From Bradyrhizobiaceae bacterium (GTDB lineage Bacteria > Pseudomonadota > Alphaproteobacteria > Rhizobiales > Xanthobacteraceae): 38,806 bases of DNA. Made by a program: the position numbers and the translations under genes. The notes beneath the pieces are model-generated. The model did not search any database. It had not been told where the DNA came from and saw nothing but the letters and a program-made list of their open reading frames with translations. The DNA lies in assembly GCA_947479905.1 (NCBI GenBank), contig CANKBJ010000013.1, positions 1 to 38,806 on the forward strand, given 5' to 3'. Shown piece after piece: positions 4,415 through 22,713 of the stretch (the first letter of the stretch is position 1; each line of letters starts with the position of its first letter).

Positions 4415-4442
4415 CTGCATGTCGGGTATACCCGACATGCAG
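4415..4442. repeat. 28-bp perfect palindrome without a spacer
   Basis: The sequence from 4415 (CTGCATGTCGGGTA) is followed immediately by its exact reverse complement (TACCCGACATGCAG). It lies 27 bp past the stop of the YdhR-like gene. It could be a dispersed element, a terminator core (no T-run follows) or a protein-binding site. Confidence 0.85.
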
Positions 4443-7073: not shown

Positions 7074-7744
7074 TCAATCCAGCTGCGGAATATCCAGCTC
7101 TCGGAACATGTCGCCGGCTTCCTTGGCGGTCGCCGCGATCAGCGCGGTGAATTCATCGACCGAAGACGAGGTCGGGATGGTGCCGGCCTTTTCCATGATG
7201 GTCTTGAATTCCGGCGAGGCGACCGCGTCGCGCACATGCTTGTTCAGCGTCTCGAGCACCGGCTTGGGCACGCCCGACGCGGCGCAGACGCCCCACCAGC
7301 CGTAATTGACGATTCCCAAGCCCTGCTCGGCCAAAGTCGGCACGTTCGGCGCAACCGCGAGACGCTCCGGACTGGTGAAGCCGATCACCTTGATCTTCTT
7401 TTCCTCGTAAAAAGGAATCGTGATCGAGATCGGCTGACCGCGAAGTCGAGCCGGTTGCCGACGATTTCCTGCATCGCAGGGCCGGTGCCACGGAAGGCGA
7501 CGCCGGTCATCTTGGCGCCAGTGATCTTCTCGACCTGCTTCGGCAGCAGTTCGGTGACGGAGCCAGTGCCGACCTTGCCGTAGTTCAGCCCGCCCTCTTT
7601 CGCTTTCGCATGGGCGACGAATTCCTTGGCGTTGCTGGCCGGCGACTCGGCCGGCACGACGAAGGCGTAATAGGCCTTGGTCACCAACGACACCGCCGCC
7701 ATGTCTTCGACCTTGTACGTCACCTTCTTGTACAAAAGCGTATT
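7074..7744 (-). pseudogene. Truncated, frameshifted Bug-type tricarboxylate receptor
   Basis: Two reading frames together give the C-terminal two-thirds of a tripartite tricarboxylate transporter (Bug/TctC) receptor. The upstream part runs from LLYKKVTYKVEDM to GNRLDFAV, and the downstream part from PISITIPFYEEKK through PNVPTLAEQGLG to the stop at 7074. The join is near 7428-7440, where 1 or 4 bases appear lost; restoring GATC after GCGGTC would mend the frame. The N-terminal third, including any signal peptide, is missing: homology stops near 7744. The intact paralogue at 27513-28493 shows what is lost. It is a decayed gene unlikely to make a working receptor. Confidence 0.8.
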
Positions 7745-7759
7745 GCCGGATCGATGTAA

Positions 7760-7898
7760 GAGCACAGCAGCAGCGTATGACATCTATGCGGGCATCGCGC
7801 GGCTCTATGAGCGAATCGCCCAGGATACGAACGCCTCGAAAGACGAGATCGCGACGCTGGCCGCCTTCTATCGGAAGGCGGCGGACCGGCCGAAATAG
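7760..7898 (+). pseudogene. 3' fragment of an unrecognised gene
   Basis: This stretch encodes YDIYAGIARLYERIAQD and a matching helical C-terminus ending AAFYRKAADRPK before a stop at 7896-7898. Its composition looks like real protein, but the frame upstream reads through the antisense of the Bug pseudogene. I read it as the tail of a small alpha-helical protein whose 5' part was removed by the same rearrangement that cut the Bug gene. I do not recognise the family. Confidence 0.4.
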
Positions 7899-7933
7899 CG
7901 CCTAAAGGTCAGCTGGTCCGAGGCGCGACACGT

Positions 7934-8707
7934 CTAAGGCGCCAGCCAGACCGCGCCGCCGAAATCCGGAGATTGCCGATAACCGCAGCTTTTCAGAAAA
8001 GCATGAATCGCGTCCGGCGACCTGCCGCGCGCGGCCAGTTGGAGCGGGTGCAGTTCGAGCGCCAGCGCCCGCACTTTGCCTTGTTCGAAAATCCGCGGCG
8101 AGCCGAGAACGGCTTCGTATTCGTAGCCTTCGATGTCGATCTTCGTGAGGTCGGCCGACTCTATGCCGAAGCGCGCGAATATGTCCGCCAAAGTGACCGT
8201 CGGCACGGTCTCGGTCGGAACACGGTACCGGGTGGTCCGCGCCAGTCCGCTGCCGCCGCTGTTCACGTCCGGGCAAAGGTGAAGCGCGGCGCGGCCGATG
8301 CGGTCGGAGACCGCCTCCGGCACGACGGTCACGCCGGTACAGCCGTTCAGCCGCAGGTTCTCGGCGATGATCGGCAGTAGGCGGGTTTGCGGTTCGACGG
8401 CGAACACCCGCCCGGCCGGACCGGCGAGCGCGGCCGCCTGCACGGTGAAATAGCCCTCATTGGCGCCGAGATCGACGAAGACGCCGCCAGGCTTGAGATA
8501 GACGCGCAGCGCCGCCCGCATCTTCGGCTCGTAATCGCCGTTGGCGAGCAGCGCATAGCCGAGGTTCGACGCCGGATCGATCCAGTAGCGGCCATGGCCG
8601 GTGTCGATCGTGGTCCGCCTGATGCCGAGCAGGCGCTTTGCCAGCGCGCCCAGAGACGCCGGACGAACCGCGAGAATAGCGCGCAGCATCCACAACCGCA
8701 GTCGCAT
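7934..8707 (-). CDS. FkbM family methyltransferase
   Basis: A 257-residue SAM-dependent methyltransferase of the FkbM type. The SAM-binding loop VDLGANEGYFTVQAA is near residue 78, followed by RVFAVEPQTRLL and the TKIDIEGYEYEAVLG block typical of FkbM. FkbM-like enzymes O-methylate sugars, lipids or polyketides; in this kind of genome they often sit with polysaccharide genes, but no such neighbours are present here. The first 20 residues are hydrophobic and basic and may only be peripheral. The gene lies in the segment between lysC and ptsP that appears rearranged, so it may be a late arrival. The substrate is unknown. Confidence 0.85.
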   Translation of the reverse strand: MRLRLWMLRAILAVRPASLGALAKRLLGIRRTTIDTGHGRYWIDPASNLGYALLANGDYEPKMRAALRVYLKPGGVFVDLGANEGYFTVQAAALAGPAGRVFAVEPQTRLLPIIAENLRLNGCTGVTVVPEAVSDRIGRAALHLCPDVNSGGSGLARTTRYRVPTETVPTVTLADIFARFGIESADLTKIDIEGYEYEAVLGSPRIFEQGKVRALALELHPLQLAARGRSPDAIHAFLKSCGYRQSPDFGGAVWLAP

Positions 8708-8810
8708 GGTGACGCTCCCTCGACCGCGCCTGTCGCCACACCGGGAAAAAAAGCCGCCAACGGCGGGCGCACGGCGGTATCCCGCGTTATTGGGCCGAAA
8801 TTGCTTGCCT

Positions 8811-8846
8811 CAAAACATGTCGCAAAACTTGCCCCAAAACTTGCCC
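8811..8846. repeat. 12-bp tandem repeat, three units
   Basis: Units are CAAAACATGTCG (8811-8822), CAAAACTTGCCC (8823-8834) and CAAAACTTGCCC (8835-8846). The last two are identical and the first is degenerate. The array sits in the 323-bp gap between the divergent FkbM and ptsP genes. It may hold spaced binding sites for one of the two promoters. Confidence 0.75.
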
Positions 8847-8962
8847 GTTGCCACCCCCATTCGCTATAGGCTGCGGCAGGGCTGCGGGCGCCGGATTCGC
8901 AGCCGCCTTTCGTGCATAATCGGGCCATAAACGAGGCTTTCGGCCCCCGATTCCGGTATTTA

Positions 8963-9011
8963 GCGCGTGATCCCGAAAAGTGGATACCGGTTTTCGGGCA
9001 AGATCACGCGC
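8963..9011. repeat. Dispersed-type palindrome just upstream of ptsP
   Basis: The outer arms are GCGCGTGAT / ATCACGCGC (8963-8971, 9003-9011). The inner arms are CCCGAAAA / TTTTCGGG (8972-8979, 8991-8998). It resembles a palindromic element I recall in many Rhizobiales intergenic regions (GTGATCCCGAAAAGTGG...). It ends 19 bp before the ptsP ATG, so it is probably within the ptsP leader or promoter. Confidence 0.75.
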
Positions 9012-9030
9012 CGATAAAAAGGACCTCACA

Positions 9031-11298
9031 ATGCGTGGCGCGCTGGGCGGTCCGCGCGTGCTGTTGCGCCGTCTTCGCGAAGTCATGGCGGAGCCGGTCA
9101 GCGCGCAGGATCGTCTCGACAAGGTGGTCGTCCTGATCGCCGCCAACATGGTGGCGGAGGTTTGCTCTGTCTACGTGTTGCGCGTGGACGGAACCCTGGA
9201 ACTATACGCCACCGAAGGTCTCAAGCGCGAAGCCGTCCACGCCACCGTCATGAAGGCCGACGAAGGCCTGGTCGGTTTGGTGGCGAGCGAAGCCACCAAG
9301 ATCAATTTATCGGACGCGCAGAACCACCCGGCCTTCTCGTTCCGCCCGGAGACCGGCGAAGAAATCTACCACTCCTTCCTCGGCGTGCCGATCCTGCGCG
9401 CCGGCAATACGCTCGGCGTGCTGGTGGTGCAGAACCGCGCGCGGCGGACCTACACCGAGGAAGAAGAAGAAGCGTTGCAGACGACGGCGATGGTGCTCGC
9501 CGAAATGATCGCGTCGGGCGAACTGTCGTCGATCGCCAAGCCCGGCGCCGAGCCGGCCGCGCGCCACGCCATCCATATCGAAGGCATCTCGCTGTCCGAC
9601 GGCATCGCGCTCGGGCACGTTGTTTTGCATGAACCTCGTGTCGTCATCACCAACGTAATCGCCGACGACGTGCCGAAGGAACTCAAGCGGCTGGAAGCGG
9701 CGATCGCCACCTTGCGCGCCGCTCTCGATCGCCTCGTCGAGCACCGCGACGTCGTCGACGGCGGCGAGCATCGCGATGTGCTCGAGGCCTATCGCATGTT
9801 CTCCTACGATCAGGGCTGGGCGCACAAAATCAGGGAGGCGGTGACGACGGGCCTGACCGCCGAAGCCGGCGTCGAGCGTGTGCAATCCGACACCCGCGCG
9901 CGCATGCTGCGCGCCTCCGACCCGTATCTGCGCGACCGCCTGCACGATCTCGACGATCTCGCCAACCGGCTGATGCGCGTGCTGCTCGGTCAGGACCACG
10001 CGCCGCGCAAGGATCAATTGCCGGACAACGCCATCGTCGTCGCCCGCTCGATGGGTCCGGCGGCGCTGCTCGATTACGACCGCAAGAAATTGCGTGGCCT
10101 CGTGCTCGAAGAAGGCGGCATGACCTCGCACGTCTCGATCGTGGCGCGCGCGCTCGGCATTCCGACCGTCGGCGACATCGCCAACGCCACCGGCCTGGTC
10201 GAACAGGGCGATGCCATCATCGTCGATGGCTCGACCGGCCATGTCCACATGCGGCCGCCGCAGGACATCGAGGCCGCTTTCGGCGAGCGCGTCAAATTGC
10301 GCGCCCGGCGCATGGCGCAGTATCGCGCCGCGCGCGACAAGCCCTGCGTCACCAAGGACGGCTGCGCCATTTCGTTGATGATGAATGCCGGCCTCACCAT
10401 CGACCTGCCGCATATGGCCGAGACCGGCGCCTCCGGTATCGGCCTGTTCCGCACCGAACTGCAGTTCATGGTGGCGCCGACCTTGCCGCGCACCGGCGAG
10501 CAGATGCAGCTTTACCGCACCGTGCTGGATGCCGCCGGCAAGAAGCCGGTGACCTTCCGCACGCTCGATATCGGCGGCGACAAGGTGTTGCCCTATTTGC
10601 GCAACTTCGAGGAAGAGAACCCGGCGCTCGGCTGGCGCGCGATCCGCCTCGGACTGGATCGGCCCGGCCTGTTGCGCAGCCAGGTACGCGCATTATTGCG
10701 TGCCGGCGGCGGCCGCGAAATTCGCGTGATGTTTCCGATGATCGCCACGGTCGAGGAATTTGACCTGGCCAAGGCGCTGGTCGAGGTCGAACTGACGCAT
10801 CTGCGCAAGCACGGCCATTCGCTGCCCGAGCGGGTGCATATCGGCACCATGCTGGAAGTGCCGTCGCTGCTGTTTCAGCTCGACGAGCTGCTTGAGCGCG
10901 TCGACTTTCTCTCGGTCGGCTCCAACGATCTGATGCAATTCCTCTACGCCGCCGACCGCGGCAATACGCGGGTGTCGCAACGCTTCGATCCGCTGTCGGC
11001 GCCGGTGCTTCGCGCGCTGAAGGAAATCGCCGACAAGGCCGCCAAGCACGGCAAGCCGGTGGCGTTGTGCGGCGAACTGGCCTCGCAGCCGATCGGCGCA
11101 TTGGCGCTGGCGATCATCGGCTATCGCGCCATGTCGCTGACGCCGTCCTCGGTCGGCCCGGTCAAGGCGATGCTGCTGGAGCTGGACTGCAAGAAGGGCG
11201 CCGACGCCTTGCTTCCGGCTTTGGCGCGGCCGGTCGGCAGCGTGTCCATCCGTCAAACGCTTGAAGATTTTGCGACCGCCGAGGGACTTTCCCTTTGA
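9031..11298 (+). CDS. ptsP: Phosphoenolpyruvate-protein phosphotransferase, nitrogen PTS enzyme I
   Basis: A 755-residue enzyme I of the nitrogen-related phosphotransferase system. An N-terminal GAF domain covers about residues 20-165. Next come the enzyme I N-domain (about 190-310), the phosphohistidine domain with the active His367 ([18 protein letters not shown]) and the PEP-binding TIM barrel (about 420-740) with Cys680 in LCGELAS. It autophosphorylates from PEP and passes phosphate to NPr and EIIA-Ntr to tune carbon/nitrogen and potassium responses. The GAF domain is the proposed glutamine sensor in this family. ATG 9031 is chosen: AAAAGGA precedes it at good spacing and the family length fits. 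prfA follows after 13 bp, so the two may be co-transcribed. Confidence 0.95.
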
Positions 11299-19768: not shown

Positions 19769-21451
19769 TCATGCCGCGATGACACGCTCCAGGAATTCCT
19801 CAACCAGAACGTCGAACTTGTCCGCAGCCGCCGCGGAAGCGCCGGAAGCCGCCTGCACATTCTCCGCCGCCCTTTGCGTGCGCGCGACCGCAACGGCGAG
19901 CTCCTCGACGACGCGCGACAGGTCCGCGGTCCAGCCGGCGGCATCCTGAAGATTCCGGTTTATCTGCACCGCCGCCATGTTCTGGGATTCCACGGCGGCG
20001 GAAATCACCGAGGCGTGCGTGGTGGCTTCGCCGCTGTTGCTGACGATCGCCCGGATGTCATTGACCGCGGCCGCAGTGCGGCTGCGCATGTCGTTGATGC
20101 GCGTCGTTATCTTCTCGGTCGCCGACGCGGTCTGCGTGGCCAGCGATTTGACTTCGGACGCCACGACCGCGAAACCGCGGCCCGCGGCTCCGGCGCGCGC
20201 GGCCTCGATGGTCGCGTTCAATGCCAGAAGATTGGTCTGGCCCGCGACGGAATCGATAAAAGACACGACGTCGCCGATCGTCTGGGCGGCCTCGGCAAGA
20301 CCGTCGATCGATGTCGAGGTCATGCGGGCGCGCTGCGCGGCCTGACCGATCGCCGTTTCGGCCTGCTTGACCGAGCGGCTGATGCTATCGACCGATCCGG
20401 ACAGTTGCTGGGTTGCCGCCGCGACGCCCGCGACATTGGTCGACACTTTTTGCGAAGCACCGGTCGCGCTGCCTGCGGCGATTTGCGTGTCGGCGGCGGC
20501 GGCGATCAGTTCCTTCGCCGCAATACCCATCGCCTCCATGGATTTCTCGCTGTCAGCGAGGGCCTCGATGACCGCCGCGCGGAACTCCGTTATGGTCACT
20601 TCCAGCTTCTCGCGGCGATTGTCGCGCTCGAGCATGTCGCGGGCGCGATCCGCCGACAGCCGGCGGCGCGCTTGCGCATTGTCGCGGAAGACCTGCAAAG
20701 CCGACAGGATCGCGCCGATTTCGTCCGACGTCGTCACGGCGGGAACCGGACTGGTGATGTCGCCATTCGCGATCCGGGAGACGGCGGCGATTGCCTCGCC
20801 GAGCGGCCGTTTGACGCCGTAATGCAGCAGCATCCAGCCCGCCACCAGCGTCACGGCCATGCCGGCGATCAGGGCCGTGAGGACGGTCTGCTTGGCCTCA
20901 ACCGCGCGGCGGTCGAAAGCCCTGGCGGCGGCTTTGGCGCTGCGGTGGACAATGTCCTCGGCCTTAACGACGACCGCGCGCACGCGGCCTGCATGAATGA
21001 CGGCCGCGGCCAGATGGAAAATCTGCTCGTCGTGGGAACGCCGGCCGAAGTCTTCCTTGGTTTCCTGCCAGGCGTGCCGCATTTCCTTGATCGACGTGGC
21101 GAAGGTCTCCCACTCCTCCGCGCTCACCACATCCTGCAGGATGGGGGCGACCGGCGTTCGCAGCGTCTCAAGTCGCCGCAATAGCGCGTCGCTTTCGTCG
21201 ATCGCCGACTTTTGCTCGGCCGGGGTCAGATCGAGACCGATCGACGAGAAGGCTGTCGCCGCCCCCAATGCAACGATCACCACTTCGTTGATCGTTTCGC
21301 GGCGCTGCTCCTCGGCCCGCTCAACCTCGCTAAGCGCCTGCAAGGTTGTCAGTTCGTGGAGGCTCAGGCCGACAATCAACGCGGTGACGACCGCGCCAGC
21401 AGCGAGGATAGCGGTGATCCGCTGACGGAGGCCTAATCGTTGCAGCATCAT
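19769..21451 (-). CDS. Methyl-accepting chemotaxis protein
   Basis: A 560-residue transmembrane chemoreceptor. Membrane segments are at about 11-32 and 188-210, enclosing a helical periplasmic domain of about 155 residues. A HAMP domain (about 212-265, starting [11 protein letters not shown]) and the signalling domain follow. The receptor tip reads [21 protein letters not shown] and [15 protein letters not shown], as expected. No C-terminal CheR/CheB-tethering pentapeptide is visible. The ligand is unknown. No che genes are nearby, so it is an orphan receptor. It lies 49 bp downstream of the PepSY gene on the same strand and may be transcribed from the same promoter. Confidence 0.93.
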
Positions 21452-21500
21452 TGTCCTTCCGCGTCGGGAGAACCCCCGCGTTGCGGAAATCCCTACACCG

Positions 21501-21767
21501 TCAGCTCTTGTGCTCTTGGACGACGGCGCCCGTCACCGGATGGAAGTAGATCTCGACGCGTTGGCCTTTCTCGTCCTGGCCGTAGATCTCGTAACAGTTG
21601 CCGGTGGTCACTTTAAAGACCTTGTATTTGTAGCCTTGCGTTGCAAGCTTCGCCTTCATGTCGCTCTCGCTCAGCCAATTTGTCTTCGGTTCGCTGGTGC
21701 AGGATGGGCCAGCGAGTGCGGAACCCGCCATCATCGAAATCACCAATCCGAGCATCACCGATCGCAT
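21501..21767 (-). CDS. Small secreted PepSY-domain protein
   Basis: An 88-residue protein with a signal peptide ([19 protein letters not shown], cleavage near residue 19). The mature part has two cysteines, [21 protein letters not shown] and a [16 protein letters not shown] ending, the PepSY pattern seen in small periplasmic proteins. Some PepSY proteins modulate proteases or sensor kinases. The ribosome site GAGGAG (21774-21779) lies 6 nt from the ATG and partly inside a 13-bp hairpin (21776-21805). The MCP gene follows on the same strand. Confidence 0.85.
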
Positions 21768-21775
21768 GCGAATCT

Positions 21776-21805
21776 CCTCATGTTGGAAGGTATTCCAACA
21801 TGAGG
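21776..21805 (-). promoter_or_regulatory. Hairpin or operator overlapping the PepSY ribosome-binding site
   Basis: Perfect 13-bp arms CCTCATGTTGGAA and TTCCAACATGAGG, separated by 4 nt. On the transcript, GAGG of the ribosome site is paired and only AG plus the spacer stays free. It could control translation (temperature or ligand-dependent opening) or be a DNA operator. Confidence 0.6.
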
Positions 21806-21819
21806 ATGCATGCCGACGA

Positions 21820-21834
21820 TTAATCGACGATTAA
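21820..21834. promoter_or_regulatory. Candidate CtrA-type box
   Basis: TTAATCGACGATTAA is a perfect 15-bp palindrome and fits TTAA-N7-TTAA, the CtrA pattern of alphaproteobacteria. It is 53 bp upstream of the PepSY start and could drive the PepSY-MCP pair. The assignment is by pattern only. Confidence 0.4.
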
Positions 21835-21907
21835 GCATTGGCACGCGCGACGGGGCGATTTAATGCCAATTCAGCCATCAATCTCGGACTACAAAATAGA
21901 TTGCGGT

Positions 21908-21927
21908 CCCCGGCCAATATGCCGGGG
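21908..21927. terminator. Short hairpin just after phaB
   Basis: CCCCGGC and GCCGGGG pair around a 6-nt loop. It lies 4 bp beyond the phaB stop on the minus strand, so it is a plausible phaB terminator, though a clean T-run is absent (a weaker ATCTATTTT follows further on). Confidence 0.4.
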
Positions 21928-21930
21928 TCG

Positions 21931-22656
21931 TCAGGCGAAATACTGCCCGCCGTTAGCCGACAAGGTCGCGCCGGTGATCAGGCCGGCCTCGTCGGCGGCA
22001 AGGAAGACGACGCAGCGGGCGATTTCTTCCGGCTCGCCGAGACGGCCGATCGGGATCAGCGGCAGGATCGACTTCTCCAGCACGTCCTTCGGCACCGCCT
22101 GCACCATTTCGGTGTTGATGTAGCCCGGGCAAATGGCGTTGACGGTGATGCCGGCCTTGGCGCCTTCCTGCGCCAAAGCCTTGGTGAAGCCGAGTTCGCC
22201 GGCCTTGGCGGCGGAATAGTTGACCTGGCCCATCTGACCCTTCTGGCCGTTGATCGACGAGATGTTGACGACGCGGCCGAACTTGCGCGCGCGCATGCCT
22301 TCCCAGACCTGGCGCGTCATGTTGAACAGCGAGCCGAGATTGGTGCCGATCACCGCATTCCATTGCTCCGGCGTCATGCGGTGGAACATGCCGTCCTTGG
22401 TGATGCCGGCATTGTTGACCAGGACTTCGATCGGCCCGACTTCCGCCTCGACCTGCTTGATGCCGGCGCCGCAGGCTTCAAAGGACGACACATCCCACTT
22501 GAACACCGGAATGCCGGTCTCGGCCTTGAATTTTTGCGCGGCCTCGTCGTTGCCGGCGTAGCTGGCCGCGACCTTGTAGCCCTTGTCCTTCAATGCCTTC
22601 GATATCGCCGCGCCGATACCGCGGGTTCCGCCGGTCACCAATGCTACGCGAGACAT
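21931..22656 (-). CDS. phaB: Acetoacetyl-CoA reductase (NADPH)
   Basis: A 241-residue short-chain dehydrogenase that reduces acetoacetyl-CoA to (R)-3-hydroxybutyryl-CoA for PHB synthesis. It has TGGTRGIG at residues 8-15, NNAG near 81, and Ser134, Tyr147 and Lys151 as catalytic residues. The NISSINGQKGQMGQVNYSAA context is highly specific for PhaB. It lies 147 bp downstream of phaA on the same strand, with a hairpin between them. The PHA synthase gene is not in this window. Confidence 0.95.
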   Translation of the reverse strand: MSRVALVTGGTRGIGAAISKALKDKGYKVAASYAGNDEAAQKFKAETGIPVFKWDVSSFEACGAGIKQVEAEVGPIEVLVNNAGITKDGMFHRMTPEQWNAVIGTNLGSLFNMTRQVWEGMRARKFGRVVNISSINGQKGQMGQVNYSAAKAGELGFTKALAQEGAKAGITVNAICPGYINTEMVQAVPKDVLEKSILPLIPIGRLGEPEEIARCVVFLAADEAGLITGATLSANGGQYFA

Positions 22657-22685: not shown

Positions 22686-22713
22686 GTCATGGCCGGGTCG
22701 AGCCGGCCATGAC
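22686..22713. repeat. Hairpin between phaA and phaB
   Basis: Perfect 11-bp arms GTCATGGCCGG / CCGGCCATGAC around GTCGAG. It lies in the phaA-phaB gap, 30 bp before the phaB start. It belongs in style to the dispersed CCGG-rich palindromes and may limit read-through or protect the phaA message. Confidence 0.7.

Follow-up and report, generated by a model that had tools for sequence, protein, structure and literature searches.

Read-through transcription between neighbouring genes is common in bacteria, and it is seldom asked how a tightly controlled gene escapes translation from the RNA of its neighbour. The question is raised by a perfect hairpin that covers the ribosome-binding site of a small gene in a Bradyrhizobiaceae bacterium, within a stretch of 38,806 nucleotides (contig CANKBJ010000013.1, hereafter the window). 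Which RNA would carry this hairpin, and what may it do there?

The hairpin and its occurrence in relatives

The gene (21501-21767, minus strand, start codon 21765-21767) encodes 88 amino acids. Its product belongs to the Pfam family PepSY_2 (PF13670; 96.1 bits against a gathering cut-off of 24.3, residues 5-85) and, judged by its N-terminal sequence, is probably secreted. The gene sits between a phaB-like gene and a chemoreceptor gene, with neither a kinase nor a regulator gene directly adjoining. The phaB-like gene (21931-22656, minus strand), a short-chain dehydrogenase by its open reading frame and Pfam match, lies directly upstream across a gap of 163 nt and was named from the adjoining thiolase-like open reading frame and from the PHB_acc regulator. 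A GC-rich hairpin after phaB (21908-21927, minus strand) is without an adjacent T run and is at best a weak terminator; a terminator scan of positions 21400-22000 found none. The phaA- and phaB-like genes are presumed to be the obvious source of read-through RNA carrying the whole hairpin. An inverted repeat, 93% complementary, is also present between these two genes (22686-22713).

The hairpin at 21775-21806 (minus strand) consists of two fully complementary arms of 14 bp (21775-21788 and 21793-21806) and a 4-nt loop, and lies 8-39 nt from the ATG. The first-pass annotation had described it as a perfect hairpin of 13-bp arms at 21776-21805; the loop was right, and one pair had been missed on each side. 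The ribosome-binding site GAGGAG (21774-21779, minus strand) is 7-12 nt 5' of the ATG, and five of its six bases, all except the last, fall within the 3' arm, so that the overlap proposed earlier was confirmed. In 30 windows resampled with a first-order model, perfect hairpins with arms of at least 14 bp and loops of 3-12 nt occurred at a mean of 0.03 (one in 30). The earlier statement that the symmetry is beyond chance holds against this expectation, with the reservation that long hairpins are commoner in real than in resampled DNA, because the window has two further ones (arms of 12 and 13 bp) where 0.07 with arms of at least 12 bp are expected per resampled window. Elsewhere in the window, a perfect palindrome with 12-bp arms, CTGCATGTCGGGTATACCCGACATGCAG (4415-4442), lies between an EamA-like and a small open reading frame, both on the minus strand, and could be an operator; a hairpin with 13-bp arms and A and T runs at its ends (1988-2025) resembles a bidirectional terminator. 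Folded as RNA, the 101-nt hairpin region yielded -42.3 kcal/mol versus -28.9 ± 3.3 kcal/mol for 200 shuffles (z -4.1), and in the predicted fold the two arms pair with each other, which encloses GAGGA of the ribosome site.

Searches at E≤1e-20 found the PepSY_2 gene in four of 43 genus genomes, several of which are incomplete: the window's own genome, G011 (locus L027, also L004), G013 (L028, also L005) and G022 (L030, also L006). L027 keeps 12-bp arms, TCCTCATGTTGA/TCAACATGAGGA, around a 7-nt loop. L028 keeps the 3' arm and has a changed 5' arm, which weakens the predicted stem to eight outer pairs, including a G-U pair that results from a C-to-T change, and three inner pairs. At the ribosome-binding site, CAACATGAGGAGA is invariant across the window, L027 and L028. 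No hairpin of at least 7 bp was found over the ribosome site in L029, L030, L031 or L032. L029, L031 and L032 are also downstream of a phaB-like gene, in L031 with one extra gene between (neighbouring genes of relatives were named from plasmid annotations or by reading the sequence). Compensatory changes, as the annotation had suggested looking for, amount to one inner pair: inside TTG/CAA, a G-C pair in the window corresponds to A-T in L027, a matched double change by hand alignment, where MAFFT places the gap elsewhere. Among the three close sequences found, the window's included, this matched change is suggestive of selection on pairing, short of proof.

A response-regulator-type box places the predicted start inside the hairpin

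Upstream of the hairpin, at 21819-21835 (minus strand), lies the direct repeat CTTAAT-N5-ATTAAT, in full CTTAATCGTCG ATTAAT. Its two half-sites with an 11-bp period constitute a repeat of the type expected of OmpR/PhoB-family boxes, and eight other loci have a box in like placement. A search for TTWA-N7-TTAA in 56 PepSY_2 leaders gave 11 matches, nine of them at -64 to -75 from the ATG; L024 (box at -34) and L060 (box at -123) did not enter the offset count. The nine loci are the window, L027 to L032, L033 (Marinomonas) and L038 (Motiliproteus), and thus range from Hyphomicrobiales to gammaproteobacteria. A hexamer xAxxxT is present exactly 10 nt past the box in all nine, and at the other 31 offsets in 0 to 2 of nine; the probability of such agreement by chance is about 1.5e-7 (background 0.065, seven lineages taken as independent, 32 offsets allowed for). 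A predicted OmpR/PhoB-family box is expected to stand in fixed placement to the -10 element, and the single shared offset is of this kind. An alternative -10 placed by eye at 15-17 nt past the box was unsupported by the offset count in the nine loci.

The -10 element was located from orthologues instead of from the sigma-70 consensus, for which a scan of positions 21400-22000 found no site. A paper on transcription starts in S. meliloti describes poor conservation of the sigma-70 -10 in that species (PMC3616915), and the loose hexamers fit this description. In the window the predicted -10 is CATCCT (21803-21808, minus strand), which overlaps the 5' arm of the hairpin at its outer end. The box and the conserved offset therefore place the predicted transcription start inside the hairpin: the +1 is 21796 (minus strand, about 2 nt either way), the seventh base past the hexamer. 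Transcription from here would leave 10 of the 14 bases of the 5' arm (21793-21806) untranscribed, so that the gene's own mRNA would retain just the 4-bp remnant GGAA-UACC-UUCC.

The predicted cost of opening the ribosome site differs accordingly between RNAs: 4.3 kcal/mol from the predicted start versus 15.0 kcal/mol when the RNA extends 40 nt further upstream; shuffling of the added sequence gave 6.2 ± 2.0 kcal/mol. The mean unpaired probability of the site changes less, from 0.24-0.27 with the hairpin to 0.29-0.37 when the 5' end lies between -30 and -15, since coding sequence partly takes over the pairing in the short RNAs. For the window, L027 and L028, RNAs that start at least 40 nt before the ATG are predicted to fold with the ribosome site covered. 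Masking of the ribosome site, as first proposed, is thus predicted for RNA bearing both arms, and the gene's own transcript is predicted to begin inside the hairpin. The first-pass annotation had said that a start inside or downstream of the hairpin, with relatives lacking the symmetry, would tell against its proposal. Half of this is now indicated: the -10 position in 9/9 loci points to a start near 21796, and the relatives are divided, L027 keeping the symmetry, L028 having a weaker stem and L029-L032 having no hairpin.

A second class of box, with GACAG- or GTCAG-type half-sites of the same period, is present in 19 of the 56 leaders; here xAxxxT occurs at the 10-nt offset in 10/19 and at other offsets in at most 3/19. 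These boxes (GACAG-N6-GACAG or GTCAG-N6-GTCAG) mostly lie 67-95 nt upstream of the PepSY_2 genes (19 loci, e.g. L034, L046, L054 and L056) and are likewise found in the plasmid stretches L134, L135, L137 and L138. In several loci a response regulator gene adjoins, and the boxes are a candidate binding motif of its product. In L034, L036, L046, L048, L049, L054 and L056 a short GC-rich hairpin of unrelated sequence was often seen by eye near the predicted +1, 5' of the ribosome site.

Possible insulation from read-through and competing explanations

We hypothesize that the hairpin insulates the PepSY_2 gene from phaA-phaB read-through, the gene's own mRNA starting inside the palindrome. Of the explanations weighed, we consider this the likeliest, quite possible if short of probable. 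Each end of the palindrome would have a function of its own, the 5' arm overlapping the -10 and start region and the 3' arm being the ribosome site. With a response regulator on the TTAA-N7-TTAA box, transcription would begin inside the palindrome, and the resulting mRNA, keeping only the small remnant, would leave the ribosome site more open. Both arms would be present in read-through RNA from phaA-phaB, which would fold and be poorly translated. If the hairpin blocks translation of read-through RNA in this way, then mainly the gene's own regulated promoter would yield PepSY_2 protein. Among the matches listed in a literature search on read-through insulation, seen as titles and openings of abstracts, were phage and transposon papers and no PepSY_2 leader of such a kind, which is not proof of absence.

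The same symmetry could have arisen without a function of its own, a possibility that we regard as real and yet doubtful. Separate constraints on the -10 and on the ribosome site, two elements prone to be complementary, would hold the arms, and drift or template-switch repair of a quasi-palindrome would have made the rest symmetric. The -10 hexamers CATCCT and TACCCT are indeed complementary to the ribosome-site-like AGGATG and AGGGTA, arms of 12-14 bp are confined to the window and L027 among the loci described above, with the 5' arm changed in L028 and the hairpin absent from L029-L032, and the window has other long hairpins. Against this, 14 perfect pairs are more than a -10 and a ribosome site account for, the window and L027 differ by a matched G-C/A-T change in the hand alignment (the MAFFT gap differs), and occlusion by native upstream segments beats that by swapped segments in 14 of 25 loci (see below). 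An on/off switch within the gene's own mRNA, as the annotation had it, is disfavoured. Here the normal mRNA would come from an upstream promoter, with the hairpin gating translation until temperature, a protein, a small RNA or RNase III opens it. The predicted cover over the ribosome site in the longer RNAs of the window, L027 and L028 agrees with such a switch, which we nevertheless hold to be very unlikely: the conserved box and -10 place the predicted +1 inside the hairpin, L029-L032 are without this hairpin, and Rfam covariance models gave no match up to E 1 in positions 21400-22100. A thermosensor in particular is unlikely because a stem of 14 perfect pairs should be too stable, and the computed 15.0 kcal/mol for opening the ribosome site, obtained at the single temperature of 37 °C, argues against an RNA thermometer.

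Least probable, in our judgement, is a DNA operator in which a repressor dimer would occupy the palindrome of about 30 bp across the -10 and start. In its favour, the palindrome is perfect and coincides with the predicted core promoter. Against it, when 13 nt of the arm were searched for in the 3.79-Mb assembly (87% complete), allowing up to one mismatch, the two arms were the only places found, while the reversed-sequence control gave one match. The looser pattern CATGTTG-N(4-16)-CAACATG recurs once in the genome, within an open reading frame, and is present in 24 of the 43 genus genomes; its reversed control gave no match in the window's own or any genus genome. When 24 pattern loci were read (L062 and L082-L104), 16 were one orthologous coding-region site, seven lay elsewhere and one, the G011 copy, preceded the PepSY_2 gene, the sole further copy in that place among the genus genomes. 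In addition, no transcription-factor gene directly adjoins among the listed open reading frames and the symmetry is broken in L028. The suggestion of a 30-bp operator thus found little support; an operator or dispersed repeat was rejected as the main reading on these counts.

Occlusion in other loci, candidate regulators and known systems

A general test of occlusion was made because L032, L033 and L038 looked alike by eye, without evident sequence similarity in the segment; the idea was thus formed after these three loci had been seen. The set tested comprised 23 loci, the nine TTAA-box loci and 14 of the 19 GACAG-box loci (L012, L022, L047, L059 and L105 were left out). In 11 of these 23 the native 40 nt upstream of the predicted start occluded the Shine-Dalgarno sequence and start codon more than 60 shuffles did (p≤0.05). 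The 12 loci that failed were L028 (9.0 vs. 6.7 kcal/mol for the Shine-Dalgarno sequence, p 0.08), L029-L032, L009, L046, L052, L053, L055, L058 and L060; L032, one of the three that had prompted the idea, is among them. When native segments were compared with the upstream segments of other clades, rank p≤0.1 was reached in 14 of 25 loci; L047 and L059 were added for this swap test, and partners of the same clade were excluded. L035 and L041, being near-copies, were dropped. With a fixed 33-nt leader, 15/60 PepSY_2 loci reached p≤0.05 vs. 11/130 ordinary genes (Fisher 0.003), the latter from six annotated stretches in which true starts are not known and plasmid gene tables are incomplete. By clade medians the same geometry gave 10/43 vs. 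11/130 at p≤0.05 (Fisher 0.014) and 13/43 vs. 22/130 at p≤0.1 (Fisher 0.051). Control rates at p≤0.1 ranged from 2/22 to 6/23 (E. coli) per stretch, and one of five further plasmid PepSY_2 loci reached p≤0.05. The result leans on the inferred starts, because L027, L033 and L038 lose significance under fixed geometry. Read-through occlusion as a general property of PepSY_2 loci thus has moderate support from these predictions, with an excess that is modest and sensitive to the chosen start. The wider claim would be that in regulator-controlled PepSY_2 genes generally the promoter DNA encodes a complement to the gene's own ribosome site or start codon, each time in unrelated sequence, and that read-through RNA is thereby silenced. 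A device like that of phage T4 gene e would then have evolved on chromosomes repeatedly and independently; this wider claim we regard as unlikely. Should it prove frequent for promoter DNA to carry sequence complementary to the gene's own ribosome site, a hairpin over such a site ought not to be called a switch until the start site has been taken into account. A cheap test is illustrated here: locate the -10 from orthologues first, and then ask which arm is transcribed.

Which regulator would bind the box? CtrA-type TTAA-N7-TTAA is present in the window, L027, L028, L030 and the gammaproteobacterial L033 and L038, and L029, L031 and L032 have TTTA in the first half. The window's CTTAAT-N5-ATTAAT conforms to the PmrA-box pattern (CTTAAG or CTTAAT and xTTAAT or CCTAAG, 5 bp apart), by which the identity of the regulator is not indicated. 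The box appears compatible with a PmrA/QseB-type regulator and with CtrA alike; to our knowledge, the groups of the gammaproteobacterial relatives lack CtrA. The partial Motiliproteus regulator encoded beside its PepSY_2 gene has 14 matches in the window's own genome, none of them on this contig. The best are on contigs C53 (49%) and C8 (45%), and PepSY-like genes, as read, adjoin each; no TTAA box was found in the C53 stretch and one was found in the C8 stretch (L140). On C53 (L139, about 7700-10076), a PepSY-like gene, a response regulator and a kinase lie beside an ApbE-like gene and a flavoreductase-like membrane protein of PepSY type, as read from the sequence. The strict box occurs at five places in the window genome, two of them before similar response regulator genes. 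In L064 and L066 (on C32 and C60), two response regulator genes, one read as sigma-54-type, resemble each other and share the TTAA-type box upstream, an apparent duplication. In five annotated plasmid stretches (L134-L138) a cytochrome b-type gene follows the PepSY_2 gene in all five; regulator and kinase genes come next in L135, L137 and L138, a gap and then an ATP-binding protein in L134, and in L136 a sigma/anti-sigma factor pair precedes.

Three kinds of known system may be compared, each as described in excerpts of the cited papers. Small periplasmic PepSY proteins, DbfQ among them, regulate two-component systems (PMC12714742); the window protein is probably of the same small, periplasmic kind, and in several relatives of its gene a cytochrome b gene comes next, with regulator and kinase genes after it. 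In contrast, the window gene has no kinase or regulator directly adjoining, and DbfQ belongs to Pfam PepSY (PMC12714742), whereas the window protein belongs to PepSY_2. PmrA boxes consist in Salmonella of CTTAAG and xTTAAT, 5 bp apart, and in Klebsiella pbgP of CTTAAT and CCTAAG (PMC3973317). The window box shares with PmrA-type and CtrA boxes two TTAA-type half-sites, the 11-bp period and the placement at the -35 region (PMC3973317, PMC4660055, PMC11264516); the boxes of L029, L031 and L032 differ in having TTTA as the first half. In the PmrA-pbgP complex the -35 element is at half-site 1 (PMC4660055), and the spacing from the window box to the -10 fits such a placement. The leaders of phage T4 gene e (lysozyme) and I-TevI come closest to the insulation proposed here: in long read-through transcripts, early ones for gene e, a helix hides the ribosome site, and RNA from promoters just upstream, late ones for gene e, lacks the 5' strand of this helix and is well translated (PMC3014915). 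For T4, the inhibitory structure and a 100-fold effect have been reported (PMC3014915), whereas the window case is predicted throughout and concerns a chromosomal gene that is apparently under a response regulator. The likeness is that here, too, the long RNA pairs the ribosome site with an upstream arm, by predicted fold and opening energies; the start predicted from the conserved -10 would exclude 10 of the 14 bases of the 5' arm.
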